Shown in pieces: positions 8,475 to 62,302 of a DNA stretch of 64,000 bases. Numbering within the stretch: the first letter of the stretch is position 1; each line of letters opens with the position of its first letter. The stretch spans positions 62,001 through 126,000 of the forward strand of contig JACQPN010000019.1 in NCBI GenBank assembly GCA_016207515.1. The letters are read 5' to 3'. A model generated the notes under the pieces. The model was not told the DNA's origin. It saw nothing but the letters and a program-made list of their open reading frames with translations, and did not search any database. This DNA is from Euryarchaeota archaeon (GTDB lineage: Archaea; Thermoplasmatota; SW-10-69-26; JACQPN01). Made by a program: the position numbers and the translations under genes.

Positions 8475-10034
8475 TCACGCGGACGGACTGGAACCGCTGA
8501 GGATTGACGTCGTCGGGACGATGATTGATCCTTCGGTCGCGGTCATCAGCGCATCGATGACCTTGTTGCGGATCTCAGACCCGACGACGTACCCTGCCGG
8601 TCGTTCCGGATGCGCTTGGACGATCCCACTCGATGCTAGACGTGACACGTGGAAGTTCACGGTGCTCTTCGCGAAGGCGAGACGTCCCCTCATCTCGGCC
8701 TGCGTGATTCCCGGCTCGAGGAGCACAAGCTTCGCGATCTTACGGCGCACCTCCGAGTCGAAGGCAAGGATGTAACCCTTCTCGTTGACGCCAAACGAGT
8801 TGTGGTTCTCGAACAACCGAATGAAACGACCCTTCCTCGCCAACTCGACGTGACCATAGTCGGCGAGAACACGAGAATGATGAAGGGCGGTCTTGAAATC
8901 GACGTTCAAGAGACGCGCCGTGTCAGACACGGAGATGCCAGGGTTCTTCTTGATCAAGGCAAGCATCTCTTGACGGATCGGGTTGTCGAGGATCTTACGC
9001 TCGTGGAGACGGCGGTAGAGGGCGAAGGCAATCCATGGCAGTCCCAGAGAAAACATCACTTCCAGGAGTTCAGTATTGGTTAACGACAGCGGTCCCGCGG
9101 GAGGAAGTGTGGGTTGCTTCGTGGCGTAACTTTTGGTGGTTCGAGGTGAATCTTCATAGAGCGTCCTTTTCACGGGAATCCAAGCGCCCCCGAGGTCGGC
9201 GACATTCGCCGCGCGTGGAGCGAAGCCCGTCGAATCGATTTCCGTGATATTCCCGCCCGACGCCCGCGCGTTGATGCCACCCGAGTCAAGGTCTGTTGAT
9301 TGGTAAGTGTCCGCTTCGACCGTCACGCGGCGATAGAATAACGAAACGTGTGCGTTGGGGCTCATTTCACGACCGGCTCCATCGACCCATGCATAATCAT
9401 CGAACACGCACGGGTTCGACTCGTCCTCGCCACAAACGACGGACTTCTTACCCTGCTCGTTCCAGAGTTGACCATCGGACGAATTAGGATTAGTCCCATA
9501 GTACGGGGTTGATAGAGACGTGTAATTGACCTCGTGGTCCGAATCGTCCCATTCAGAGACGGGCCATTCTCTGGCGGCAAATGGAGAGACGGCATCAGGC
9601 AAGATCAAAGCCGCCTCGCTTCGATTGAACTCCAGCCAAAGCCCGGTCGTTTCGGAAAGCGAGGAATGGCGGAAATCATCCGTTGTCGAATACGTTTCAA
9701 ACAATGGGTGGCGCATGGTCCAGTTTTCGTTTTCGGCTTGGGCGCTCGCATGTTGGCGTGGCACAAACGGCAAGTCGTTTACCGTAGCGTCAAAGGCCCC
9801 CACATCTTGGGTTACATACACACCCTGGTCGCCCAAATCGGAACCCGCGCTATCGTCGGCACGAATCCCGCACGAATCGACTTGCGGATCAAGACCGCAC
9901 CTACCGGGTTGCCCGTTGTGAAGGGCGACTTCGCCGTTCTCCGATGAAATCACGAAATCAGCCCCAACAGCCGGCGTCAGAGCCGTCACTATCGCGAAGA
10001 ACAGCGCCCCAAGCCGCGCAGATTGGAATGCCAA
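8475..10034 (-). CDS. Membrane-anchored double winged-helix regulator with extracellular sensor, copy 1
   Basis: 519 residues if started at TTG 10034, just after the stop of the small peptide gene (10052); the frame is open to 10154 but that would overlap the peptide. Layout: signal/anchor helix (LGALFFAIVTALTPAVGA), an extracytoplasmic domain of about 300 residues with several Cys, a transmembrane helix near residue 345 (LLEVMFSLGLPWIAFALY), then a cytosolic half with two winged-helix units: one around NPGISVSDTARLLNVDFKTA and one around EPGITQAEMRGRLAFAKSTV. The cytosolic half is about nine-tenths identical by eye to the gene at 55036-56571, while the extracellular half is only distantly alike (shared FE.YS.TD and SD..W patterns). 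Likely an outside-to-DNA signal transducer; target genes unknown. Confidence 0.8.
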   Translation of the reverse strand: MAFQSARLGALFFAIVTALTPAVGADFVISSENGEVALHNGQPGRCGLDPQVDSCGIRADDSAGSDLGDQGVYVTQDVGAFDATVNDLPFVPRQHASAQAENENWTMRHPLFETYSTTDDFRHSSLSETTGLWLEFNRSEAALILPDAVSPFAAREWPVSEWDDSDHEVNYTSLSTPYYGTNPNSSDGQLWNEQGKKSVVCGEDESNPCVFDDYAWVDGAGREMSPNAHVSLFYRRVTVEADTYQSTDLDSGGINARASGGNITEIDSTGFAPRAANVADLGGAWIPVKRTLYEDSPRTTKSYATKQPTLPPAGPLSLTNTELLEVMFSLGLPWIAFALYRRLHERKILDNPIRQEMLALIKKNPGISVSDTARLLNVDFKTALHHSRVLADYGHVELARKGRFIRLFENHNSFGVNEKGYILAFDSEVRRKIAKLVLLEPGITQAEMRGRLAFAKSTVNFHVSRLASSGIVQAHPERPAGYVVGSEIRNKVIDALMTATEGSIIVPTTSILSGSSPSA

Positions 10035-10051
10035 CCGCGTCCACTCCGGCC

Positions 10052-10303
10052 CTAGTTCTCCGGCGGACAATAGTCTCGGGACTTGCAAGGGACGTAGATT
10101 GGACATGGCTTCTTGAGGTTGGTACACGTCTGAACGCTCGCGACACACGCCCACAAGTCAACGTTGCCTAGGCGCCCGCCTTTGCATGCCGTAACCACAC
10201 CGGCGCTTTTCTCTGGCCCTTGCGGCGGACTCGCCACGGCCAAAGGCACAATCGAACAAACCAAGCCGATCACCAAGAGCAAGCTCAACACCAACCGTTT
10301 CAT
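10052..10303 (-). CDS. Small secreted Cys-rich peptide precursor, copy 1
   Basis: 83 residues. ATG at 10303 has a GGTGG ribosome-binding site six bases upstream. A signal peptide (MKRLVLSLLLVIGLVCSIVP, cleavage probably after AVAS) is followed by a mature part of about 57 residues with six Cys, enough for three disulphides. It aligns with the peptide at 56581-56814: both begin ASPP after cleavage and share a GRL..(D)L..C....V..CT core. It lies directly upstream of, and is probably co-transcribed with, the membrane regulator. No known family recognised; a signalling or inhibitor peptide is a guess from context. Confidence 0.72.
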   Translation of the reverse strand: MKRLVLSLLLVIGLVCSIVPLAVASPPQGPEKSAGVVTACKGGRLGNVDLWACVASVQTCTNLKKPCPIYVPCKSRDYCPPEN

Positions 10304-10386
10304 TCTGACCACCAAACCTCGAGTTGGAGGTGACCAGCCATATCAAGAATGTTTGCCAGGAAAAGACCCGGCCGCCCCAGTCCTTC

Positions 10387-10403
10387 GGGGAAAAGCTTAT
10401 ATG
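10387..10403. promoter_or_regulatory. Shared divergent promoter element, cassette copy 1
   Basis: A 13-base block, GGGGAAAAGCTTA at 10387-10399, continues into TATATG and forms a TATA-like box for the protease gene at 10450. The same 13 bases stand at 56904-56916 in the second cassette. The core AAGCTT is palindromic and the complementary strand also reads as a TATA-like CATATAAGC, so it may serve the peptide-regulator genes as well, about 84 bases from their first start codon. Confidence 0.6.
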
Positions 10404-10449
10404 ATGTCCGAATCGGGTATCTGTCGTTCTAGAAGCCTCTTAAGGGCGC

Positions 10450-11781
10450 ATGAACTGGAGAACCAACGTGGGACGCGGACGGTACGGATTTCTAGCCGTA
10501 ACAGTGGTCTTGGCGGGATGTATTTCGCCGCCAGCAGCCGACGATGCAGTCTTCACGGAACGGCTAGATGATGCAAATCCTCCAAGACCCGTCATCATCG
10601 CAGTGGTAGATACTGGCGTCAACCCTTATCATTCTCACTTCCGGAATTTCAATTCTACAAACGCTCGTTTGGTTATCAATCAGCTCGTGGCGGACGGCGT
10701 GAAAATAACGACGGTCAGCGTCTCAACCGGAAACTCGGCGGAAACCTATTCGCAGCGACTCGAAAGAGATAGAGCCACCTGGAATTCACTCGCGCCCGGA
10801 AACCTGTACTTCATTGATGGCACGCGGTTCCTCGGCGTCACACTTCCGTCCACATATGCCCCGGCGGATCCAATCTCTCAATCGCTTTATCCTGCTACCT
10901 CTACGGGACTGCTGGATGAAGAGGGTCATGGCACACAGGTAGTAGGGACCCTCGTGGATGCCTTTCCAGAAGCCTTGGTGCTCGTAGTCAAGATTCCGAG
11001 CGACTACTACGCGAATTCAGCCGAAGCGGTCCCGAATTTCGCGCGAGCCCTCCGATGGGTTGCCGACCAGCCATGGATCGACATCGTCTCGTTTTCCCAA
11101 GGAACGCCCGGAAACGCTCCAACCGTATGGGATGCCGACCTTTCGGCGGCCGTCAAATCAGTAGACCGAAGCGGAAAACTATTTTTTGCCGCTGTCTCCA
11201 ACGAACCCGGACACGCCACGGGGTCGGCCACTAATGGTCCCCCTTCGGTGATAAGCGTCGGAGCAGCCATACGGAACGAAAGCGGCGACAACATTGGTCC
11301 GTCAAAGGGAATCGATTTCGTGTCTGAGGCCGTTCATTTTCTTCCGACAGCTTTTTCCACCGATGAATACTCGATGGCATCGGGAACGAGCCTCGCAGCA
11401 CCAGTCGTGGCCGGGACAGCGGCTAGAATCCTTGCAGAGATGCGACAGAATGGCACCTGGGCCACTGCGGGTGATGCAGCGCGGCCACTGAGATTGTCGC
11501 TGAACGTGACGGCCCCCTACTTCAACACGTCCGATTGGGAGCCCTTCGGTGCCGGCTACAGCGATCCCAGCGACGACGTCATTTGGGCGCACACGGCCCC
11601 CATCCTCCCCACTCCCTGGGTCCAAATGGGTTGGGGCTACGTCGGTCCTGAAATAGTTCCTGCGGCGGTCGCATATCTTAAAGGCGAATCCATTCCTCCC
11701 CCTAAGCCCGCCGAGGCGATCCAGTACATGGAGACGACTTATGCGCTTCGCGAGGCGTATTGGGAGCAGCGCGGAGTTTGA
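10450..11781 (+). CDS. Secreted subtilisin-like serine protease (S8), lipoprotein, copy 1
   Basis: 443 residues with an N-terminal signal ending in a lipobox (VVLAGC), so probably lipid-anchored outside the cell. The catalytic triad is intact: Asp in VIIAVVDTGVNPYHSHF, His in DEEGHGTQVVGT and Ser in SGTSLAAPVVAGTAA; the oxyanion Asn is in AAVSNEPG. The mature catalytic domain starts close to the lipobox, with little room for a classical inhibitory prodomain. The final ~60 residues (from APILPTPWVQMGWGYVGPE) are nearly identical to those of the protease at 56985-58298, although the catalytic regions are much more diverged. Divergent from the peptide-regulator pair. Confidence 0.85.
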   Translation: MNWRTNVGRGRYGFLAVTVVLAGCISPPAADDAVFTERLDDANPPRPVIIAVVDTGVNPYHSHFRNFNSTNARLVINQLVADGVKITTVSVSTGNSAETYSQRLERDRATWNSLAPGNLYFIDGTRFLGVTLPSTYAPADPISQSLYPATSTGLLDEEGHGTQVVGTLVDAFPEALVLVVKIPSDYYANSAEAVPNFARALRWVADQPWIDIVSFSQGTPGNAPTVWDADLSAAVKSVDRSGKLFFAAVSNEPGHATGSATNGPPSVISVGAAIRNESGDNIGPSKGIDFVSEAVHFLPTAFSTDEYSMASGTSLAAPVVAGTAARILAEMRQNGTWATAGDAARPLRLSLNVTAPYFNTSDWEPFGAGYSDPSDDVIWAHTAPILPTPWVQMGWGYVGPEIVPAAVAYLKGESIPPPKPAEAIQYMETTYALREAYWEQRGV

Positions 11782-11853: not shown

Positions 11854-12054
11854 ATGGAAGTCCACTTCACGCGGCACGCCCGCTTGCGGATGGTGGAGCG
11901 TGGAATCTCGACTTCTGAAGTGTTGGAATGTCTACGAACCGGAACCAAGAGGGTCCAAGGCGACAAACTCGTCGCCGCATTCACCTATTTCGAGGTGGTG
12001 TACCGGAAGGCCGGCCCGAACATCGTGGTCATCACGGTGGTTCCAAGGTGGTGA
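11854..12054 (+). CDS. DUF4258-type toxin of a toxin-antitoxin pair
   Basis: 66 residues, compact and basic, with the family's opening pattern FTRHARLRMVERGISTSEV and a closing beta-hairpin VVYRKAGPNIVVITVVPRW. DUF4258 proteins have an RNase-like fold related to RelE and occur as toxins. An upstream TATTATAT (about 11824) places the transcription start close to the ATG, so the message may be nearly leaderless. The next gene starts four bases after its stop and encodes the likely antitoxin. Confidence 0.78.
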   Translation: MEVHFTRHARLRMVERGISTSEVLECLRTGTKRVQGDKLVAAFTYFEVVYRKAGPNIVVITVVPRW

Positions 12055-12058
12055 CGTC

Positions 12059-12391
12059 ATGAAGAACTGTCCGTCTTGCGGCAAGGGCGCCTTGAAACGC
12101 TCAAAGACAACGGAGACGATGTACGGGATCGAGCTCGGCCGGTTCCCCGCAGACGTCTGCGGCTCGTGCGGAGAGTCTTTCGTGGACGAGACCGTGATGA
12201 AGGCGATCGAAGCCCGCGCGAAGGATGTCGGTGTCTGGGGCCTCGGCCGAAAACTCAAGATCTCGCGCTCCGGCAACTCGCTCGTCGTGAGGGTCCCGGC
12301 CGACGTCGCTAAGTTCCTGAACCTCGAAGAGGGCCAAGAGGTCTACGTGCACCCGGAGGGCAAGGAGAAGTTGGCGGTGGAGATAGGGTAG
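12059..12391 (+). CDS. Zinc-finger/AbrB antitoxin (MqsA/YgiT-like N-terminus)
   Basis: 110 residues in two parts. The N-terminal half is a YgiT/MqsA-type zinc finger with two CxxC pairs (NCPSCGKG and VCGSCGES). The C-terminal half is an AbrB/SpoVT swapped-hairpin DNA-binding domain (LKISRSGNSLVVRVPADVAK, then LNLEEGQEVYVHPEG). This build is typical of an antitoxin that neutralises its toxin and represses the pair's promoter. ATG at 12059 follows the toxin stop by four bases. Confidence 0.82.
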   Translation: MKNCPSCGKGALKRSKTTETMYGIELGRFPADVCGSCGESFVDETVMKAIEARAKDVGVWGLGRKLKISRSGNSLVVRVPADVAKFLNLEEGQEVYVHPEGKEKLAVEIG

Positions 12392-51562: not shown

Positions 51563-53176
51563 TCAAACGCGAACCGGCGGGCTTCCCGTACCGGAGGCGG
51601 CGGTTCCATCGCGACCCACCCCGCGCCCGGATTCTCCCTGATCCCATTCGATGTCATTGCCCCAAGGGCCGACGGGGACGTTATGGTCGAAATCGTAGAA
51701 GTCGGCTTCCGGGCCCTCGTCAAGGAAAACGGCGTCTCCGCCCACGTCGTGGGAGAAGCCATTCGAGGCGGCCTTGGTCCAATAATTGTCGAAACCGGAA
51801 CGGTCGGAGAACCTTGCGTAGGCTTGATCGCCCGTGGTGTACGCCCTCGCGCAACAGATGCTGGCGTTGTGCGTGTCGCTTCCCGATTGGTCGATGAAGA
51901 CGCCGATGGCCCGATCTCCCGTCGTGCCGAAACCGCCCCAGGCGTAACCCTGACCTTGCGAAACAATCCAATTGCCGTCATCTCCCGAGTAATCCAGGAA
52001 GATGCCCACACCCCTGAAAAAGCCCGAGCCTTGAGACTCGACGCCTGAACTACGATTGTCGTCTCCCCCGATGTCGACGGCGATTCCGATCCCTGCAAGC
52101 CGTCCCGCACCCTGGCAGGTCGACATCCCAGAATACGTGTCGTTACCTTGCTCATCGTGTAGGATGCCGATGGCCGCACTGGCGCCGCCTTGGCAATAGT
52201 CGGTGCCCCAATAGGTATCGTCCCCGGCGATATCCAAAACGGCCGATACGATGATGCCATCGCCGCCGAGCTGCGTGGGGAGACCCATGCTTCCCCCGGC
52301 GGCCATGCTGTAGGTGTCGTTGCCGCCGAGATCGACGATTAAGATTGCCGTGTGGTCGTATTTCACGGTCGGCACCTCGACCTTGGGGTTGTACGGACCC
52401 TCGTAGGTGGTGGCCCCGCTCCCACCGACGATTATGAGGCCCGTGGGGTCGGAGAAGATGATGTCGTCCTCCGTGTCGTCGTCGCCGTTTGGCGTTATCG
52501 ACGAGAGCCCTTCCGTCTGGCTCTTGGCCAACGAATAGGAAACGAACTGTGATCGAGTCTCCGCGATCGCTTCGAGCATCACCGCCGCGGCGATCCTTGA
52601 GCTCGGCATGTCGACCTTTGCTAGCGCTGATTGCGCGCGTTTGGACGGGGCGCGCGGATCCGGTCCGTCCCTTTGCTTCTCGTACTCGGCCAACGCGTTC
52701 CAATCTTCGGTGGTCAATGCGCTCCACGCAGAACGCTCAAGAGATGTGGCAAGCGCGGTCGCGGCCACTAGCTTGGCGATTGGGCGCTGGATTTCCAACG
52801 GCAAGGAGCAGGCTGTGCCGTGGAGTTGCGTCAATGACTCCGCAGGAGGATTGAATTGATTGCTTGCATACAGCGACTCGGCCGCCAACGCCAACGGGCA
52901 GAGTTGCCCACTGAAATCCTGCGGCATCGGCAATGGGCCCAGCGGCTCACCCGGAAGAGACCGGAGCACTTCCGCCGGCTGTTCGGGGATTCCGGCGCGG
53001 GCAAGCCCTGTTGCGGGCGTCGAGGCCCGTGGCGCCTGGCCGTCGTCTCCAACAAAATCGTCACGGTCGCGCGAAAGGGGAAAGAGACTGTCTGAAACGA
53101 AAGGGAGCGCCACCGTGGCGATCACTAGGCTTGACACGACGAGAACGACAAGAGTAGCGTCTCGATCCACGGGCAC
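51563..53176 (-). CDS. Secreted G-x-D-x-Y repeat protein, copy 1
   Basis: 537 residues. N-terminal signal/anchor helix (ATLVVLVVSSLVIATVALPF), a 220-residue helical region with paired Cys, then SDPTGLIIVGGSGATTYEGP and about seven ~30-residue repeats of the form (V/I)D.GG.D.Y......QG.G...GIG, e.g. LIVDLGGNDTYSM, VLDIAGDDTYWGTDYCQGG. The regular Asp/Gly/Tyr spacing suggests a beta-solenoid, perhaps calcium-binding like RTX repeats. Paralogous to the next gene. Family unknown to me. Confidence 0.68.
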   Translation of the reverse strand: MPVDRDATLVVLVVSSLVIATVALPFVSDSLFPLSRDRDDFVGDDGQAPRASTPATGLARAGIPEQPAEVLRSLPGEPLGPLPMPQDFSGQLCPLALAAESLYASNQFNPPAESLTQLHGTACSLPLEIQRPIAKLVAATALATSLERSAWSALTTEDWNALAEYEKQRDGPDPRAPSKRAQSALAKVDMPSSRIAAAVMLEAIAETRSQFVSYSLAKSQTEGLSSITPNGDDDTEDDIIFSDPTGLIIVGGSGATTYEGPYNPKVEVPTVKYDHTAILIVDLGGNDTYSMAAGGSMGLPTQLGGDGIIVSAVLDIAGDDTYWGTDYCQGGASAAIGILHDEQGNDTYSGMSTCQGAGRLAGIGIAVDIGGDDNRSSGVESQGSGFFRGVGIFLDYSGDDGNWIVSQGQGYAWGGFGTTGDRAIGVFIDQSGSDTHNASICCARAYTTGDQAYARFSDRSGFDNYWTKAASNGFSHDVGGDAVFLDEGPEADFYDFDHNVPVGPWGNDIEWDQGESGRGVGRDGTAASGTGSPPVRV

Positions 53177-53299
53177 TATTTTCCTCCAAACCTATTTATG
53201 GGAACGTCCGGCGACGCTTGGCCATTTCTCCCCAAAACACCCCGGGCGGCTGACATGTAAAGGCGCCCGGGGCAGTCGTGGGGGATTGGCATGACACTT

Positions 53300-54889
53300 C
53301 TACGTCACTGACGGGCCGTCTACGCCGCGTCCTTCGCCGGCGCCTTGCGTCCAAATCTTGTTGTTCCCGCACGGGCAGATGTAGTCGGTCGCCGAATAGA
53401 CGTCCTGCTCCGTACCCTCGTCCACGAACAAGGCGTTGCCACTTGTGTCCCAAGCAAGGCCGTTCGCGGCGACGTGGGTCAGGTACTGGTCGAGACCGCC
53501 CTTGTCGACGAACCACCCGCTGGCGGCGCTGCCGACAGTATACCCGCGGCCGCAACAAATGCTGAGATTGTAGTAGTCGTTGCCGGTGTAGTCGAGGACG
53601 ATGCCCACGGCCCGCTGGTCGCTAACGCCGTAGCCGCCCCACGCGTAGCCTTGGGCGGCGCTCGTGGCCCAGTATTCGTCGCTTCCGTCGAGATCCACGA
53701 GGAGCCCCACGCCGCGGAAGAGGCCGGATCCCTGTGATTCGGTTCCAGCGCTCCGGTAGTCTGAGCCCAATTCGTCGATGAATATGCCAACACCGGCCAA
53801 TCGCCCGGATCCTTGGCAGTGGGACCCCGCGTTGTAACGGTCGTTCCCCGATGAATCGATGAGGATGCCGATCGCTGTGTCGCCGGCTCCTTGGCAGTTC
53901 TCCGAGCCATCGTAGTAGTCGTTGCCCCCTAAGTCTATGACGACGGAGACCGGGATACCGTCGCCGCCCAGCTGTACTGGTAGGCCGTTCCCGCCGCCGG
54001 CGCGGCCGCCGTACGTGTCGTCGCCACCGAGGTCGATAGTGAGAACGCTTGCGACGTCCTGGTTCACCGTCGGCACGTCCACTTGCGGGTTCCAAGCGCC
54101 CACGTAGTTCGCGGCGCTTGAGCCTCCGATGATGAAAAGGCCAGTGGGATCGGAGAATAGCACGGCGTCCGTCGGGACGATTTGGTGCGGAATGATGCCG
54201 GACGCGTCGTCTATCAGGTCGGATGAATCCCCGCCATGGATCGGCGCGTCGTCGTTCCCGTTGCCGTTTTCAAGCTTACCGGCGCTTGTCGACTCCTGGT
54301 TCTGGTATTCAACCAGCAGGGGCTTCGCCTGTTCAATGGCCGACAAAAGTGAGTACGCCGCTTTGACGCTGGCGCTCTGGTCGATGAATTCCAGGAACGG
54401 TTGTTCCTTTGACGCGAGTGACGCGTGGTCGCTGTCGAGGCTGCCGGTCAAGGCTTTCCGGATTGCCGCGATGTTCTCTGCGCCCACAGCACCCATCTGC
54501 GCCTTCTCGACATCGCCGGCCTCGGTGATGGCGTAGATGATCTGGGCGACCGGGATCTGGAGTTGCAATGGAAGCGCGCACGCGTCCATCTGCAACTTAT
54601 CCTTGTGCTTCGTCTCGACGACGATGTCGTTCGCCGCATAATACTCGGCGATAGCCGTTCTCATGGGACACGTGTCGCCGACGAGGTTCTGGTTCTCCCA
54701 GTCCTCGAGGGTCACACCGCGCGCGAGGGGGACCATGCCGAGGAAATCGGAATACTGCGAACCGGAAGCAGGCGGGGTCTTAGGATTCGAAGCGAGTGTC
54801 AGCGGCTCGTCGCCCTGGTTGAGCGGCAACATGGCCACTGCGATCATGATACCAATCACCATCAGGGCCTTCATTCGGTTGTCGAACAT
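53300..54889 (-). CDS. Secreted G-x-D-x-Y repeat protein, copy 2
   Basis: 529 residues. N-terminal membrane anchor (ALMVIGIMIAVAMLPLN), helical region, then SDPTGLFIIGGSSAANYVGA and the same repeat series (LTIDLGGDDTYGG, VVIDLGGNDYYDG, ILIDSSGNDRYNAGSHCQGS). The repeat half aligns well with the copy at 51563-53176; the N-terminal half aligns poorly apart from Cys positions. GGTGGGG precedes the ATG and a TATA-like AATTATATTAATT lies near 54930. Both copies follow the second regulator cassette on the same strand. Confidence 0.68.
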   Translation of the reverse strand: MFDNRMKALMVIGIMIAVAMLPLNQGDEPLTLASNPKTPPASGSQYSDFLGMVPLARGVTLEDWENQNLVGDTCPMRTAIAEYYAANDIVVETKHKDKLQMDACALPLQLQIPVAQIIYAITEAGDVEKAQMGAVGAENIAAIRKALTGSLDSDHASLASKEQPFLEFIDQSASVKAAYSLLSAIEQAKPLLVEYQNQESTSAGKLENGNGNDDAPIHGGDSSDLIDDASGIIPHQIVPTDAVLFSDPTGLFIIGGSSAANYVGAWNPQVDVPTVNQDVASVLTIDLGGDDTYGGRAGGGNGLPVQLGGDGIPVSVVIDLGGNDYYDGSENCQGAGDTAIGILIDSSGNDRYNAGSHCQGSGRLAGVGIFIDELGSDYRSAGTESQGSGLFRGVGLLVDLDGSDEYWATSAAQGYAWGGYGVSDQRAVGIVLDYTGNDYYNLSICCGRGYTVGSAASGWFVDKGGLDQYLTHVAANGLAWDTSGNALFVDEGTEQDVYSATDYICPCGNNKIWTQGAGEGRGVDGPSVT

Positions 54890-55035: not shown

Positions 55036-56571
55036 TCAGGCCCCGGTCGCTGACGACTCCAAAGCCTTTCCGACCGCCGAGCTTCCTCGGGGCGCCTCGG
55101 CGGCGGTGACCAAGGCATCGATGACCTTGTTACGGATCTCCGGAGCCACGACGTAACCGGTCGGCCGCTCCGGGTGCGCTTGGACGATCCCGCTCGACGC
55201 TAAGCGCGACACGTGGAAATTCACCGTGCTCTTCGCGTAATCGAGGCGGCCGCGCATCTCTGCCTGGGAAATGCCAGGCTCAAGAAGGACGAGTTTCGCA
55301 ATCTTACGGCGAACGTCCGAGTCGAACGCAAGGATGTAGCCCTTCTCATTGACACCGAAGGAATTGTGGTTCTCAAAGAGGCGAAGGAACCGACCCTTCT
55401 TCGCCAACTCGATATGATGATAATCCGCAAGGACCCGAGAGTGATGAAGAGCCGTCTTGAAATCAATACCCAACAGGCGAGCCGTATCCGAAACAGAGAT
55501 GCCAGGACTCTTCTTAATGAGCGCAAGCATCTGCTGACGAATAGGGTTGTCAAGAATCTTACGCTCGTGGAGACGACGGCAGAGGGCCAGCGCGGGGCCA
55601 ACAAGAAGGAGAATTGAAGCGGCGAATTCGACACCTAGAAATCCTTTGTCGGATGAGGCTGCCCCAATCTCTGTTTGGTCCGTCCGGTGATTGGATGTGG
55701 GCGAATCGTCTGAGATTGGTATTCGCATCGTCGACGTTCTTGGAAGCTGTGAGTCGTTTGCGCCCACCCGGAAAGCACTGCCTCGAATCGGAAACTCAAT
55801 GGGGGCTATGCCCAATTCGACTGGCGGGAGAGCGCCCGCGCCCCCAGAATCCTCCATCGAAACAGAAACTCTCACCTGCCTGTAATTTAACGAAAACAGG
55901 ACGTTCGGGGTCGCGCCTCGGCCCTCTTCGGCAAATGGTACGAAGGCGTCGTGCGGGCAATCAGGAATCTCCAGTGGCAACATGTCGCATGCCAAACCCC
56001 CATAAAGGTCCGGATTCCATGCTTGTTCGTCCGAAGGCGCGGGATTCAACCCATAACCGATGGCCACGTAATCGTATCCGAGTCTATCCTGCTCGGTCCC
56101 CCATGAATAAACGTACGACGTCTGCCAAGGGATCGAAATCCCCGCAATTTCGGGCGGCACCACCAAAGAGAAGCCTTCGTATGACGCATCCGCGGTGGCG
56201 CCCGCCAAGCCCAGAATAGGTTGACGCGTGTGGTCCGTAGACGAATAGTGCTCAAATACCGAATGGCTAATCTCCATGTACTCGAAATCGACATCGTTTT
56301 CCTGTTGAATGGGTGGAAGGCCCGCCCCCGCCGCCTCTAGGCGAACACTCCTGGGCTCGCGCGAAACCACAAACTCGTCGTCGCCTGGGCCGGCAGTCCC
56401 GTTGTCGGAATACTTGAACACACACGCCGTAACCACTTGAAAGGGTGTACATCGCGCCGATCCAGGCTCCGTTGCGTCAGCGCGAAGCGGGCCGCCTTCG
56501 ACCGCGACATCGGCAAATGTGGTCGGCGCCAACAATAGGAGAAGAATGCCTGCCAACAGGGAGACGCGCAT
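55036..56571 (-). CDS. Membrane-anchored double winged-helix regulator with extracellular sensor, copy 2
   Basis: 511 residues from ATG 56571, which has AGGTG six bases upstream lying over the stop of the peptide gene. Signal helix (VSLLAGILLLLLAPTTFA), extracytoplasmic domain of about 290 residues with Cys, one transmembrane helix (LGVEFAASILLLVGPALALC), then two winged-helix units, SPGISVSDTARLLGIDFKTA and EPGISQAEMRGRLDYAKSTV. The cytosolic half matches copy 1 almost exactly; the extracellular half shares only sparse motifs (FEHYSSTDHTR, NPAPSDEQAW). Same gene order and orientation as copy 1. Confidence 0.8.
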   Translation of the reverse strand: MRVSLLAGILLLLLAPTTFADVAVEGGPLRADATEPGSARCTPFQVVTACVFKYSDNGTAGPGDDEFVVSREPRSVRLEAAGAGLPPIQQENDVDFEYMEISHSVFEHYSSTDHTRQPILGLAGATADASYEGFSLVVPPEIAGISIPWQTSYVYSWGTEQDRLGYDYVAIGYGLNPAPSDEQAWNPDLYGGLACDMLPLEIPDCPHDAFVPFAEEGRGATPNVLFSLNYRQVRVSVSMEDSGGAGALPPVELGIAPIEFPIRGSAFRVGANDSQLPRTSTMRIPISDDSPTSNHRTDQTEIGAASSDKGFLGVEFAASILLLVGPALALCRRLHERKILDNPIRQQMLALIKKSPGISVSDTARLLGIDFKTALHHSRVLADYHHIELAKKGRFLRLFENHNSFGVNEKGYILAFDSDVRRKIAKLVLLEPGISQAEMRGRLDYAKSTVNFHVSRLASSGIVQAHPERPTGYVVAPEIRNKVIDALVTAAEAPRGSSAVGKALESSATGA

Positions 56572-56580
56572 GATGAGCAC

Positions 56581-56814
56581 CTACCGTGGCGACCAGTAAG
56601 GGATTCCTTCCGGTTTGCATCCGCCACCGCCGGTGGTGCAGTTACCGACCGCAATGCGACACTCATTAAGATCGAGACGTCCCGCCTTGTTTCCTCCACA
56701 GTCGTTGTGGACCGTACCATCCCCCGGTTCCGGCGGACTTGCCGCTGCGGGCGAAAATATGGCCATCAACGTTGCCAAGCTCACTACGATTACCCAACCA
56801 CGATCTCCCAACAT
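56581..56814 (-). CDS. Small secreted Cys-rich peptide precursor, copy 2
   Basis: 77 residues from ATG 56814 (GGGGGA upstream). Signal helix (WVIVVSLATLMAIFSPAAAS), then a short mature part, ASPPEPGDGTVHNDCGG and GRLDLNECRIAVGNCTTGGG, with four Cys and an end rich in Pro/Gly (CKPEGIPYWSPR). It shares the ASPP start and the GRL.DL..C core with copy 1, which has six Cys. The stop codon directly abuts the regulator's ribosome-binding site, so the two are translationally linked. Confidence 0.7.
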   Translation of the reverse strand: MLGDRGWVIVVSLATLMAIFSPAAASPPEPGDGTVHNDCGGNKAGRLDLNECRIAVGNCTTGGGGCKPEGIPYWSPR

Positions 56815-56903: not shown

Positions 56904-56916
56904 GGGGAAAAGCTTA
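56904..56916. promoter_or_regulatory. Shared divergent promoter element, cassette copy 2
   Basis: GGGGAAAAGCTTA, identical to 10387-10399, followed by AATGGG. It lies about 69 bases before the protease start and 90 bases before the peptide start on the other strand. Confidence 0.6.
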
Positions 56917-56984
56917 AATGGGCTTCAGGCTGGCTAGAGTTCGTTCAGGAAATGCCAAATACGGTTGGAAGGGCAGGAGTTGCG

Positions 56985-58298
56985 ATGAGGGCGGTCCTTT
57001 GGGCTCTAATCATCGTGGGCCCCCTAATGGCCGGCTGCGTTTCTACAGACGCCCCAGTCGAAATACAGCTGGTCCCCGAAGCTACGACGGCGTCGAATCT
57101 AAAACCCGTAGTCATCGCCGTACTTGATACCGGCGTTGCGCCGTACCACGAAATTTTTGCCCAGAGTTACGACCCGGGACGTTCGGCCACTGTCAGGGGA
57201 CTCGCCGCACAAACTTGGGGGCCCGTCCCCGCCGTCGATCTCCAAATTGGTCCCGGCGATGATGGTACTTTTACGAATCGACTGGAGTCGGACAAGGCAG
57301 TATGGGCCACCCTTCGGAACGAGACACTCTATTACTTCAACGGGACAAATGTATTCGGTTACTCCATGCCGTCAACATTCAATCCGCCGTTCCCACATTC
57401 CTCTGTTTCCGCGTCAGAACAGGTACCGGTACTCGACGAGGATGGACACGGAACCGTCATGGCCTCAATAATCGCGTCGGCCGGTGCCATCGTGGTCGCG
57501 ATCAAGATTCCGAACGCCTACTATGAGAACCAGCAGGAGGTCACACGGAATACCGCCAGAGCCCTCGATTGGATTGCAAACCAAACCTGGATTGACTTCG
57601 TTTCGTATTCATTCGGTGTTCGAGGAAATCCCCCCACGCCTTGGGACGCCGAAATGCTGTCGGGAATCAAGAACGTAGGCGCCAAGGGAAAACTCTTCTT
57701 CACGGCATCTGGAAACGAGCCTTCGACCGTAATCACCTCTGGGGCACAGGGACCGCCGGAGGCAATCGCCGTTGGTGCCTTCCACAACGCGTCTCATGGT
57801 GACCGCCCCGATACAGGAAAACAGATGGACTACGTTTCCGACTACGTCATGTGGGTTATCGATCCACACTCTAGAGCCGGCTGGAATTGGAATTCCGGCA
57901 CATCCCTTTCTGCACCCTACGCGGCCGGAACTGCGGCCGCAATTCTCCTTGAGCTTCGGAGGGCCACTCCGGACCGAAGTTTGTCCGCCGCCGAAATTCG
58001 AAATGCACTCAACGTGTCCGCGAAATATTGGCGCGCTTCAGATTGGCAAGAAAAAATTACCAACTACTCAGATCCCGGCGATGGCGTTTTCCTTGGCGGC
58101 TCGGCCCCCATCCTCCCCACGCCCTGGGTCCAGATGGGCTGGGGTTACGTCGGTCCCGAAATCGTCCCGGCCGCCGTCGCCTACTTGAAGGGCGAATCCA
58201 CTCCTCCCCCTAAGCCCGCCGAGGCCATCCAGTACATGGAGACCACTTACGCTCTTCGCGAGGCGTATTGGGCGCAGCGCGGCGATCTCGCGTCGTGA
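56985..58298 (+). CDS. Secreted subtilisin-like serine protease (S8), lipoprotein, copy 2
   Basis: 437 residues. I start at the ATG of the signal peptide (MRAVLWALIIVGPLMAGC, lipobox MAGC); the frame is open for 49 codons upstream, but this would cover the promoter. Triad: Asp in VVIAVLDTGVAPYHEIF, His in DEDGHGTVMASIIA, Ser in SGTSLSAPYAAGTAAAI; oxyanion Asn in FTASGNEPS. Catalytic domain clearly diverged from copy 1, but the last ~60 residues (from APILPTPWVQMGWGYVGPE) are almost the same, with only two amino acid changes before the last few residues. Confidence 0.85.
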   Translation: MRAVLWALIIVGPLMAGCVSTDAPVEIQLVPEATTASNLKPVVIAVLDTGVAPYHEIFAQSYDPGRSATVRGLAAQTWGPVPAVDLQIGPGDDGTFTNRLESDKAVWATLRNETLYYFNGTNVFGYSMPSTFNPPFPHSSVSASEQVPVLDEDGHGTVMASIIASAGAIVVAIKIPNAYYENQQEVTRNTARALDWIANQTWIDFVSYSFGVRGNPPTPWDAEMLSGIKNVGAKGKLFFTASGNEPSTVITSGAQGPPEAIAVGAFHNASHGDRPDTGKQMDYVSDYVMWVIDPHSRAGWNWNSGTSLSAPYAAGTAAAILLELRRATPDRSLSAAEIRNALNVSAKYWRASDWQEKITNYSDPGDGVFLGGSAPILPTPWVQMGWGYVGPEIVPAAVAYLKGESTPPPKPAEAIQYMETTYALREAYWAQRGDLAS

Positions 58299-59434: not shown

Positions 59435-60142
59435 TCAAGGCTTTCTAAAAAGGAGGATCGTTTTCCCGGTCCGCACGACAGTTCCGTTATCGACTTTCTG
59501 CACGGCCCCCCGGGGGAGCCGTTTCCAGTCCACGTACGTGCCGTTGCTACTGTAGAGGTCGGCGACCTCGAAACCGCCCGGGACGCGGCGCACTTCCGCG
59601 TGCCTCGTGCTCACGAACGGGTCGTAGTCGAGGCAGACGCCTGAATTCGGGTCGCGCCCGATGAGCCAGGGGCCGTTGCCGGAAAGGGTCATGGTCGAAC
59701 CGATGCGCATCCCGTGGACGATTGTGAGGCGGGGAAGGTCCTGTTCCCGGGGCGTCGGAGCGCCCGTTACCATGGGTCGGGTGGGCGGGCGGAGATCCTC
59801 CGCATCGTCGAGTTCGGGTTCAAGGACGCCGAGTTTTCCGAACTCCTCGTAGATGCTGAAGAGGCGTTGCGGGACCACGACGTAATCCGTCACGGGTCCA
59901 TGCTCTCGCCGTCCTCGTAGGCGCTGTACGACGCCGATGTCGAGGAGTTGTTGCACGTGCTCCTGCGCCGTCTGGCGGGCCATCTTGAGTTCGGACGCGA
60001 TCTCCTCGATGTAATGCGGCTTCACGAGGAATTTGAGAAGGCCGAGGCGCTTGGCGTTGCCGAGCACTTTCAGGTAGCTCGCCAGGGCATCGATGCTGCC
60101 GACACGCGCCTCCTCGCCCGCTTCTTCGAGGCCCTCTTCCAC
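59435..60142 (-). CDS. Winged-helix transcription factor fused to an FHA domain
   Basis: 235 residues. N-terminal ArsR-like winged helix (about 18-95: VLGNAKRLGLLKFLVKPHYI, EEIASELKMARQTAQEHVQQ, LLDIGVVQRLRGRREHG). C-terminal FHA domain (about 150-235) with its phosphothreonine-binding signature: WLIGRDPNSGVCLDYDPFVS, then TRHAEVRRV and SSNGTYVDWKR. It should bind phosphorylated Thr and DNA in one chain. It lies 36 bases downstream of a Hanks-type kinase gene on the same strand, a natural phosphorylation partner. Confidence 0.86.
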   Translation of the reverse strand: MEEGLEEAGEEARVGSIDALASYLKVLGNAKRLGLLKFLVKPHYIEEIASELKMARQTAQEHVQQLLDIGVVQRLRGRREHGPVTDYVVVPQRLFSIYEEFGKLGVLEPELDDAEDLRPPTRPMVTGAPTPREQDLPRLTIVHGMRIGSTMTLSGNGPWLIGRDPNSGVCLDYDPFVSTRHAEVRRVPGGFEVADLYSSNGTYVDWKRLPRGAVQKVDNGTVVRTGKTILLFRKP

Positions 60143-60178
60143 GGGGATGGTATGGTTCCCGATTCATGAAGCCTTTGC

Positions 60179-62302
60179 CTAGGCGAGAAGGCCAGGCGCG
60201 GCGTTTCGGATGGCGCCACGCATCTCGGAAGCGTCCTTGAACCGGTCCTCCGGATCCTTGGAAAGTGCGCTTCGAAGGAACGTCTCGACAGGTTCCCCGT
60301 GATCCTTCACCGACAGGACGGGCTCGCCCTCGAGGATCAATTGACGCACCTGGAAATCGTCCTTTCCGGCTATTCGAAGGTAGAAACGTCCGGTGAGCGC
60401 CTGGTGGAATACGACCGCGGCCGCGTAGAGGTCGCTGCGGCCGTCCACGGCGAGCCCCCGCACCTGTTCCGGACTCATGTAAAGGAGCGTCCCGGCGACA
60501 CCACCCGCCGTTATGCCCGTTGCGTCGGGGCGTGATTCCCGCGCCACGCCGAAATCGCCGAGCTTCACCGTCCCGTCCTTCATGAGGAGGATGTTCTCCG
60601 GTTTCACGTCTCGATGCACGATCGCCTTCGCGTGCGCCGCCTCGAGTCCTGAAAGGATCTGGTCGAGGAGCGACGTGGCCTCCGCCAAGCTCAGCCGTCC
60701 ACGACGTTTGAGAAGCGAGTAGAGGTTTCCCCCGTCCGCGTACTCCATCACGATTATCGCCTCGTAGGCGCCCTCCGCCACGTCGTGGATCGCGATGACG
60801 TTCGGATGCTGGAGCGACCCGGCGAGTCGCGCTTCACGAAGCAGCATCGATGCCGCTTTCCCGCCGAGGCTCATCGTGCCAACGGCCTTGACGACCACCT
60901 CGCGGTCGAGCTTCTGGTCATACGCGAGGTAGGCCCTGCCATAGGCCCCCTCGCCAAGGAGCCGGCTCACCTTGTAACCGTCGAGGAGGACCGCTCCCGG
61001 CTCGACGCGCGGGGGCGCCTGCGGTTCGGGGGGCGCCTTCGTGCCAAGGTTCTCTCGGACCATGAACACCATGACCTGGTGCTCCGACTCGCTAATGCCG
61101 AGGCTTTTCCTCACACGTTTCACTTCCCCGTCGTCAAGAGGCGCAGTCTCCGCGATCGCCCTCTCGAGGCTCGCACGATACACTTCCAGCTTCCGTTGGC
61201 GGATGTAATCCGGCTCGTCCTTGACACCCGGAAATAGGGCGTTCCCGACGGCGTCGCGCGACATCCATGTCGTTCCCGCGATTAGCGTTCCCACGAGGAT
61301 GGGCGGTCCGGCCATGTCGATCCCCGCCCCGCTCGCCGCGTACGCCAGCGAGCCGAGCGCTCCAAAACCGATGGCAAGCCCAGCGATGCCGGGGCCTGCA
61401 AGGCGTTTCAGGCGAAGGTCGAGGTCGAAGAGCTGGTGGCGGGCGAGGGTGTAGACGAGCGCGCCGACCGTGGCGAGGCGCCAGAGGCCGGCGGTATCGA
61501 ACGCCACCGCCGATGGGACAAGCAGGCTCTCGATCGCGGCGACGGCACCCGGGACGACGAACGCGGCGACGAGCCCTATATCGCGCTCCTCGGGCGGTGG
61601 CGGCCTTAGGAGAAGGTGGACCAATAATCCGGACACCACGAGGAGGCCAAGGGCGAAGAAAACGGTGATGGGGAGCGGCGAAGGCGCCCCCGCGACGAGG
61701 ATCGTTTCGGGCGGATCGATCGAGACGAGTAGGTTACGCGTCGTCACGTAGCTCGTGAAGAGGGCGAGCGCCAGGACCAATCCCCGGTAGCGCTTTCGCG
61801 GCGAGCCCGCTCCGGACATCCTGTATCGCCGGTACATCGCGACGAGTGCGACGAAGAAGACGGCGTAGAACGGAGCGATGAAGAGCGGGAACGCGAGAGG
61901 ACCAAGTGTGGTCGCCGGCGGGCCTTGGCGCTCTCCGACGGCCGCGACCACGAGCGGCGGATCGAAGAGTAGGGCGACCGTTCCCGCGAGCGCGACGATC
62001 CCGGCGGTCACGGGGACGACCAAAGCCACCAACCCCTTTTCCCGGCGTAGCGCGAAGTGGGTGAGGAAAAGGAAGGCGGCCGGCATCACCGCGAAAGACA
62101 GGAGATAGCTCGTGGAGTGGACCTGGGCGCTTTCGAGGACCCGGCCCAGGTTGGCGCTTGAGACCTGGACCCCCCAAAGGACCGCGAAGCTGCCGAAGAA
62201 GAACTGGTCGCGCCTTGCCGGGCGGATGGTGAGCAGTATCGCGCCAAGGACAACAAGCGGGACGCCGGAAGCGAATGCGAGAACCGCGTCGGCCGACGTC
62301 AT
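60179..62302 (-). CDS. Membrane-bound Ser/Thr protein kinase (Hanks type)
   Basis: 707 residues. The N-terminal ~330 residues form about eight transmembrane helices, a 7TM-like sensor of the kind seen on histidine kinases. The kinase domain (about 430-700) has all key residues: P-loop LLGEGAYGRAYLAY, Lys in REVVVKAVG, HRDVKPENILLMKD, LGDFGVARE and activation segment GTLLYMSPEQVRGL. This is a full eukaryotic-type active-site set. It is expected to phosphorylate cytosolic targets in response to a membrane signal; the FHA-winged-helix gene 36 bases downstream is the obvious candidate reader. Confidence 0.9.
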   Translation of the reverse strand: MTSADAVLAFASGVPLVVLGAILLTIRPARRDQFFFGSFAVLWGVQVSSANLGRVLESAQVHSTSYLLSFAVMPAAFLFLTHFALRREKGLVALVVPVTAGIVALAGTVALLFDPPLVVAAVGERQGPPATTLGPLAFPLFIAPFYAVFFVALVAMYRRYRMSGAGSPRKRYRGLVLALALFTSYVTTRNLLVSIDPPETILVAGAPSPLPITVFFALGLLVVSGLLVHLLLRPPPPEERDIGLVAAFVVPGAVAAIESLLVPSAVAFDTAGLWRLATVGALVYTLARHQLFDLDLRLKRLAGPGIAGLAIGFGALGSLAYAASGAGIDMAGPPILVGTLIAGTTWMSRDAVGNALFPGVKDEPDYIRQRKLEVYRASLERAIAETAPLDDGEVKRVRKSLGISESEHQVMVFMVRENLGTKAPPEPQAPPRVEPGAVLLDGYKVSRLLGEGAYGRAYLAYDQKLDREVVVKAVGTMSLGGKAASMLLREARLAGSLQHPNVIAIHDVAEGAYEAIIVMEYADGGNLYSLLKRRGRLSLAEATSLLDQILSGLEAAHAKAIVHRDVKPENILLMKDGTVKLGDFGVARESRPDATGITAGGVAGTLLYMSPEQVRGLAVDGRSDLYAAAVVFHQALTGRFYLRIAGKDDFQVRQLILEGEPVLSVKDHGEPVETFLRSALSKDPEDRFKDASEMRGAIRNAAPGLLA

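Follow-up and report, generated by a model that had tools for sequence, protein, structure and literature searches.

A conserved three-gene cassette

A module of three genes is present twice in the 64,000-nucleotide stretch of contig JACQPN010000019.1 that was analyzed here (the window), which comes from the genome of an archaeon of the phylum Thermoplasmatota. In this module, called the cassette below, a peptide gene and then a regulator gene follow each other almost without a gap on the minus strand, and the gene for a subtilase of the S8 family diverges from them on the plus strand. The cassette is a real and conserved set of three genes, the peptide frames of which recur in related genomes. 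We tentatively favor a reading in which the membrane-bound regulator senses the peptide as a ligand through its outer domain (ectodomain) and regulates the S8 gene, and the S8 protease either processes the peptide or removes it. An earlier reading of the letters of the window (the sequence-only reading) had proposed that both copies carry the same three genes in the same order and on the same strands, and this was confirmed. The two regulators are 46% identical over 492 amino acids (E 1e-115), as are the two S8 proteins (46%, E 8e-117).

All results come from sequence analysis of nine complete cassettes and two peptide–regulator pairs, found in three genomes of one order. The sequence-only reading counted two copies, which holds for the window, but the source genome (2.67 Mb, 25 contigs) contains five. 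The other three lie on contig 25 (L022), contig 5 (L024) and the right-hand end of contig C12 (L025). The remaining complete cassettes are found in the genomes G001 (one) and G004 (three); each of the three genomes belongs to a different family, all within a single order of Thermoplasmatota. G002 and G003, of the same order, yielded no complete cassette, nor did the other two genomes of the class or any S8 locus inspected from the remaining phylum, and a wider contig scan with the S8 protein returned only two distant lone S8 genes, identical to the G128 and G151 loci. When 390 genomes of the phylum were searched with an ectodomain profile, three genomes, all of this order, had matches, and a fourth had only a marginal fragment interrupted by stops (E 9e-4). 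By contrast, 120 of the 390 genomes carry S8 relatives, and for this reason membership of the entire S8 subfamily in the system was rejected.

The peptide accompanies the regulator ectodomain

The copy 1 peptide (10052..10303, minus strand) has 83 amino acids, a signal peptide followed by about 59 residues with six Cys. That of copy 2 (56581..56814, minus strand) has 77 amino acids, and its signal peptide is followed by about 52 residues with four Cys. In all nine intervals between regulator and S8 genes, the regulator strand has a frame that encodes a signal peptide and three or more Cys, and in none of them does the opposite strand have one. Such frames turned up by chance in 0–2.7% of shuffles and in 1.0% of 400-nt stretches drawn at random from the genome. 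Since these requirements were set after the first cases had been seen, a search with a profile of the ectodomain only served as the independent test. It returned new regulators on contigs 39 and 33 of G004, each with a peptide gene directly upstream. The peptide is thus present at 11/11 loci with an ectodomain-type regulator and at none of the 26 other membrane winged-helix paralogues of the same order (Fisher p 4e-9). Among the lone S8 relatives, 43 of 44 have no peptide and the remaining one is a doubtful match. The small secreted Cys-rich peptide of the sequence-only reading is therefore real. The C-terminal half of the regulator, which that reading had suggested as a marker of the cassette, did not serve as one; the predictor is the ectodomain. 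A divergent S8 lipoprotein is found at 9/11 of these loci. The expected co-occurrence was borne out for the peptide, whose frames are conserved in relatives, but only in part for the protease, so that the constant core is peptide plus regulator and the S8 protease is a frequent but not a constant companion.

The Cys count is even (four or six) in each of the 11 mature peptides, and Ala occupies position −1 of the predicted cleavage site throughout, with signal peptides judged by simple rules and not by a dedicated predictor. The mature parts are about 42–62 amino acids long and are negatively charged in 9/11 cases (net charge −1 to −10). The Ala at −1 and the short mature parts point to peptides that are released rather than anchored. 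The sequences are hypervariable, and relatedness was seen for copies 1, 2 and 3 only. It is weak between copies 1 and 2 (E 3e-4, shuffle Z 5.4) and clear between copies 1 and 3 (shuffle Z 7.3). None of the peptides matched a Pfam family.

The regulator and the S8 lipoprotein

The regulator of copy 1 lies in an open reading frame at 8475..10154 on the minus strand, although its start is probably downstream of 10154, near 10049–10106. The copy 2 regulator occupies 55036..56580 on the minus strand and starts at 56571 or 56580. The Pfam matches (HTH_24, twice) and an AlphaFold2 model together describe a protein that starts with a signal helix, carries a large domain outside the cell and, behind a single transmembrane helix, has two winged helices in the cytosol. 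The sequence-only reading had likewise taken it for a membrane regulator with two winged helices. In copy 1, all on the minus strand, the variable N-terminal ectodomain corresponds to 9078..9977, the transmembrane helix (residues 325–353 of the model) to 8991..9077 and the two cytosolic winged helices to 8583..8981. With a DNA-binding domain and a membrane helix in one protein, the regulator belongs to the transmembrane transcription regulators (TTRs), which are defined by a DNA-binding domain and at least one predicted transmembrane region. No kinase domain was found among its domain matches. The ectodomain profile, when compared with solved structures, gave weak matches only, mostly to antibody chains (best E 0.09). 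The DNA-binding half is shared with many other membrane winged-helix regulators, a far larger family whose members have no such peptide. This family is expanded in G001–G004, with 22–47 matches per genome; the published mean of TTRs per archaeal genome is 4 ± 2 (PMC10269533).

The S8 genes of copy 1 (10450..11781, plus strand) and copy 2 (56952..58298, plus strand, start at 56952 or 56985) encode proteins that match PF00082 (E 2e-16 and 1e-19). Both are predicted lipoproteins, with the lipobox LAGC in copy 1, where the Asp, His and Ser motifs are intact, and MAGC in copy 2. An archaeal-type lipobox and the three catalytic motifs are found in all nine cassette S8 proteins. The structural model is subtilisin-like, and its best Foldseek match was subtilisin BPN' (E 5e-9). 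The secreted protease of the sequence-only reading is thus an exported S8 enzyme, but one that the lipobox would probably anchor to the membrane on its outer side. Because only about 30 amino acids separate the lipobox from the catalytic Asp motif, these proteins have no N-terminal propeptide. In the S8 protein of copy 4, TADVP replaces GNEP and the usual Asn of the GN motif is missing, so that its activity is doubtful.

A promoter element shared by the S8 genes of copies 1–4

A short element precedes the S8 gene in both copies of the window, as GGGGAAAAGCTTATAT in copy 1 (10387..10402, plus strand) and as GGGGAAAAGCTTAAAT in copy 2 (56904..56919, plus strand), with the common form GGGGAAAAGCTTAWAT. 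It resembles a TFB-recognition element followed by a TATA box and looks like the core promoter on the S8 side. No other sequence in the window is within three mismatches of GGGGAAAAGCTTAWAT. A degenerate 15-mer derived from copies 1–4 occurs exactly four times in the 2.67-Mb genome, once before each S8 gene of these copies, when about 0.04 occurrences would be expected by chance according to our own arithmetic. Since the element is confined to these four genes, it is not a general promoter of the source genome. In copy 5 and in the other genomes, different DNA-binding halves are accompanied by different sequences upstream of S8, a covariation that suggests that the winged helices act at this element. 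Of the shared divergent promoter element that had been proposed, the sharing stands, but the element is one-sided, a likely core promoter of S8 only. A search for a further operator common to the intergenic regions of copies 1–4 gave nothing that stood out convincingly from shuffles.

Variable outside, constant inside

The regulators of copies 1–4 are only 18–28% identical in the ectodomain and the transmembrane helix, whereas their 157 cytosolic residues are 90–95% identical, with a sharp step at the membrane. The fourfold degenerate sites of the cytosolic half are merely 42–61% identical, which indicates that these copies are not fresh duplicates. For the same reason, gene conversion alone was judged an incomplete explanation of the constant half; the DNA-binding half seems to be kept by selection, with older conversion perhaps contributing. 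The contrast between outside and inside belongs to copies 1–4 of the source genome and not to the whole family. In the S8 proteins, windows of 50 residues are 18–54% identical along the body and the tails are 74–92% identical. The tails of copy 4 (L025) and copy 2 (window 58100–58298) share 25 of 27 fourfold sites, compared to 1 of 9 just upstream, and this segment looks like a recent gene-conversion tract.

A tentative mechanism and its rivals

In the reading that we favor, two products of one operon would work together, a small exported peptide of the disulfide type and a membrane regulator whose ectodomain faces outward and whose two winged helices lie in the cytosol. A peptide from the same cell or its kin would bind the ectodomain of its own regulator. 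Without leaving the membrane, the peptide-bound regulator would act on the neighboring S8 promoter and probably on its operon as well. The membrane-tethered S8 lipoprotein would then mature or, more likely, clear the peptide, and the feedback loop would be closed. The sequences themselves show the order of the genes, their spacing as an operon, the export signals, the even Cys counts, the strict pairing of peptide and ectodomain, the different variability on the two sides of the membrane and the common promoter element; we infer the role of the peptide as ligand, the direction of regulation and the substrate of the protease. A ligand is the simplest reading because a soluble exported peptide adjoins a receptor-type regulator and is hypervariable like the outer half of that receptor. 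The divergent arrangement is usual for a regulator and its target, and the S8 gene would be the natural target, with clearance or maturation of the peptide as the natural job of its product. In Bacillus, subtilisin is induced by ComX and in turn degrades ComX (PMC5799266). Since copies 1–4 have different outer halves, near-identical DNA-binding halves and a shared S8 promoter element, several peptide channels probably converge on the same target sites. We place this mechanism a little short of an even chance. The fuller proposal is an archaeal peptide pheromone system in which hypervariable disulfide-bonded peptides are matched by one-component membrane transcription factors, several such channels meet at a common promoter element within one cell, and a subtilase at the cell surface tunes the signal. 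It is a serious possibility that we hold more loosely.

Several observations weigh against the favored mechanism. The two new loci on contigs 39 and 33 of G004 have no adjacent S8 gene (2/11). In the G004 paralogues, the inner and outer halves of the regulator are about equally diverged. The divergence of the peptides follows that of the ectodomain (Mantel r 0.29, p 0.04), but it is not specific to it, since the correlation with the cytosolic part is 0.39 (p 0.007). AlphaFold2 gave no resolved fold for the ectodomain when run on the full-length regulator, and the peptide profile had zero matches among solved structures. Finally, the copy 4 regulator is split between L025, at the right end of C12, and apparently the left end of contig C19 (L023), a join that we infer, and it is interrupted by a sequence repeated elsewhere in the genome (L025:5508–5647 and L023:1–110). 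A mobile or repeated element has probably been inserted in this ectodomain, which may have cost copy 4 its function as a sensor.

Of the rival accounts, a co-component system has the most support. Here the peptide would be a partner subunit, as ToxS is of ToxR and TcpH of TcpP, that stabilizes the ectodomain and shields it from proteolysis, the S8 enzyme would be a site-1 protease that destroys unshielded regulator, and the signal would be an environmental ligand or a stress instead of the peptide. It is favored by a small exported Cys-containing partner that is strictly in cis, in an operon with the regulator (upstream and on the same strand at 11/11 loci), by the membrane-tethered protease alongside, and by the precedent of TTR-associated proteins that inhibit the proteolysis of TTRs (PMC10269533; PMC11323476). 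However, the known partners ToxS and TcpH are larger and anchored. The Ala-cleaved signal peptides and short mature parts of all 11 peptides would lead to release in a single-membrane archaeon, and shielding does not require hypervariability. We consider this account unlikely, though worth keeping in view.

Two other accounts start from the protease. The peptide could be an inhibitor or a folding helper of the S8 enzyme, with the regulator sensing free protease or free inhibitor. Subtilases are often inhibited by small Cys-stabilized proteins, and the absence of a propeptide in the cassette enzymes fits such a role. Against it, almost all lone S8 relatives manage without the peptide and two peptide–regulator pairs have no adjacent S8 gene. 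As peptide and protease occur apart, the obligate partner of the peptide is the regulator. No conserved reactive loop was found among the peptides either, and this account is very improbable. Alternatively, the peptide could be an archaeocin matured by the S8 enzyme, with a regulator that senses it and governs its production or self-protection. Hypervariable small exported Cys peptides do adjoin a protease here, and some peptide toxins are matured by subtilases. This explanation is improbable in view of the net negative charge of most mature peptides, the two loci that lack S8, and the absence of any immunity gene or transporter that is constant across the loci. Archaeocins as such, the halocins and sulfolobicins, do exist in archaea (PMC4609331).

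Neighboring genes

Next to copy 1, at window 11854–12391, a DUF4258 protein is followed by a frame that begins like a CxxC zinc finger and ends like AbrB, possibly a toxin–antitoxin pair. Adjoining copy 2, at 51563–54889, are two neighboring paralogous exported proteins with GGDDTY-type repeats and no Pfam match. To its right, at 59435–62302, a protein with FHA and winged-helix domains lies next to a membrane Ser/Thr kinase-like protein. An exported Cys-rich protein of about 198 amino acids is encoded downstream of the cassette on contig 39 of G004 (L093:6899–7495).

Relation to known systems and significance

The sequence-only reading knew of no described system with this make-up, and none was found in the literature searched. 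One close likeness is to ToxR/ToxS and TcpP/TcpH (PMC10269533; PMC11323476), which also combine a single-pass membrane regulator, an outer sensor, winged-helix DNA binding and a small partner in cis, and in which proteolysis plays a part. The topology of the cassette regulator is nevertheless the opposite of that of ToxR and TcpP, with the ectodomain N-terminal and outside and two winged helices C-terminal and inside. The place of ToxS or TcpH is taken by an exported peptide that is short and of the disulfide type; a dedicated divergent S8 lipoprotein and paralogues with a common promoter element are added. Anchoring of the partner being doubtful, the cassette was not filed as a ToxRS-type co-component system.

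In ComQXP, the processing enzyme, the peptide and the N-terminal half of the receptor are polymorphic and the C-terminal half of the receptor is constant (PMC5385187). Copies 1–4, unlike the G004 paralogues, resemble ComQXPA and agr in this respect, since the peptide, the putative processing enzyme and the outer half are variable and the inner half is constant. The cassette has, however, no histidine kinase, response regulator, ComQ isoprenyl transferase or AgrB peptidase; the neighboring enzyme is an S8 subtilase, the candidate receptor is itself a transcription factor, the peptide is larger, with four to six Cys, and the variation is between paralogues in one genome, not between strains. In RRNPP systems, a cytosolic TPR-type receptor binds a re-imported peptide, whereas the candidate receptor here is a membrane winged-helix protein with an ectodomain. 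The cassette lacks the enzymes, kinases or cytosolic receptors that define ComQXPA, agr and RRNPP systems and belongs to none of them. ArnR and ArnR1 of Sulfolobus are likewise membrane-bound one-component regulators of archaea, but they control the archaellum and pili, and the abstract of their description mentions no peptide or protease partner (PMC6396743). Archaeocins (PMC4609331) are exported archaeal peptides too, whereas the cassette peptides are always paired with a membrane transcription regulator, are mostly acidic and have no constant immunity gene. The cassette thus combines known kinds of system, one-component membrane regulation with a partner in cis and peptide signaling, and is known from genomes of one lineage only.

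Cell-to-cell signaling is poorly known in archaea. The signals discussed in a 2015 review were acyl homoserine lactones and diketopiperazines, and no archaeal pair of peptide signal and receptor was found in the literature searched. Peptides, receptors, a protease and a target promoter are all available as candidates in the cassette, and since these parts sit in compact loci, the question of peptide signaling can be tested directly. Paralogous receptors with differing inputs may feed one output. If the peptide is a diffusible ligand, the cassette would be a peptide signal–receptor system in archaea in which the receptor is itself the transcription factor.

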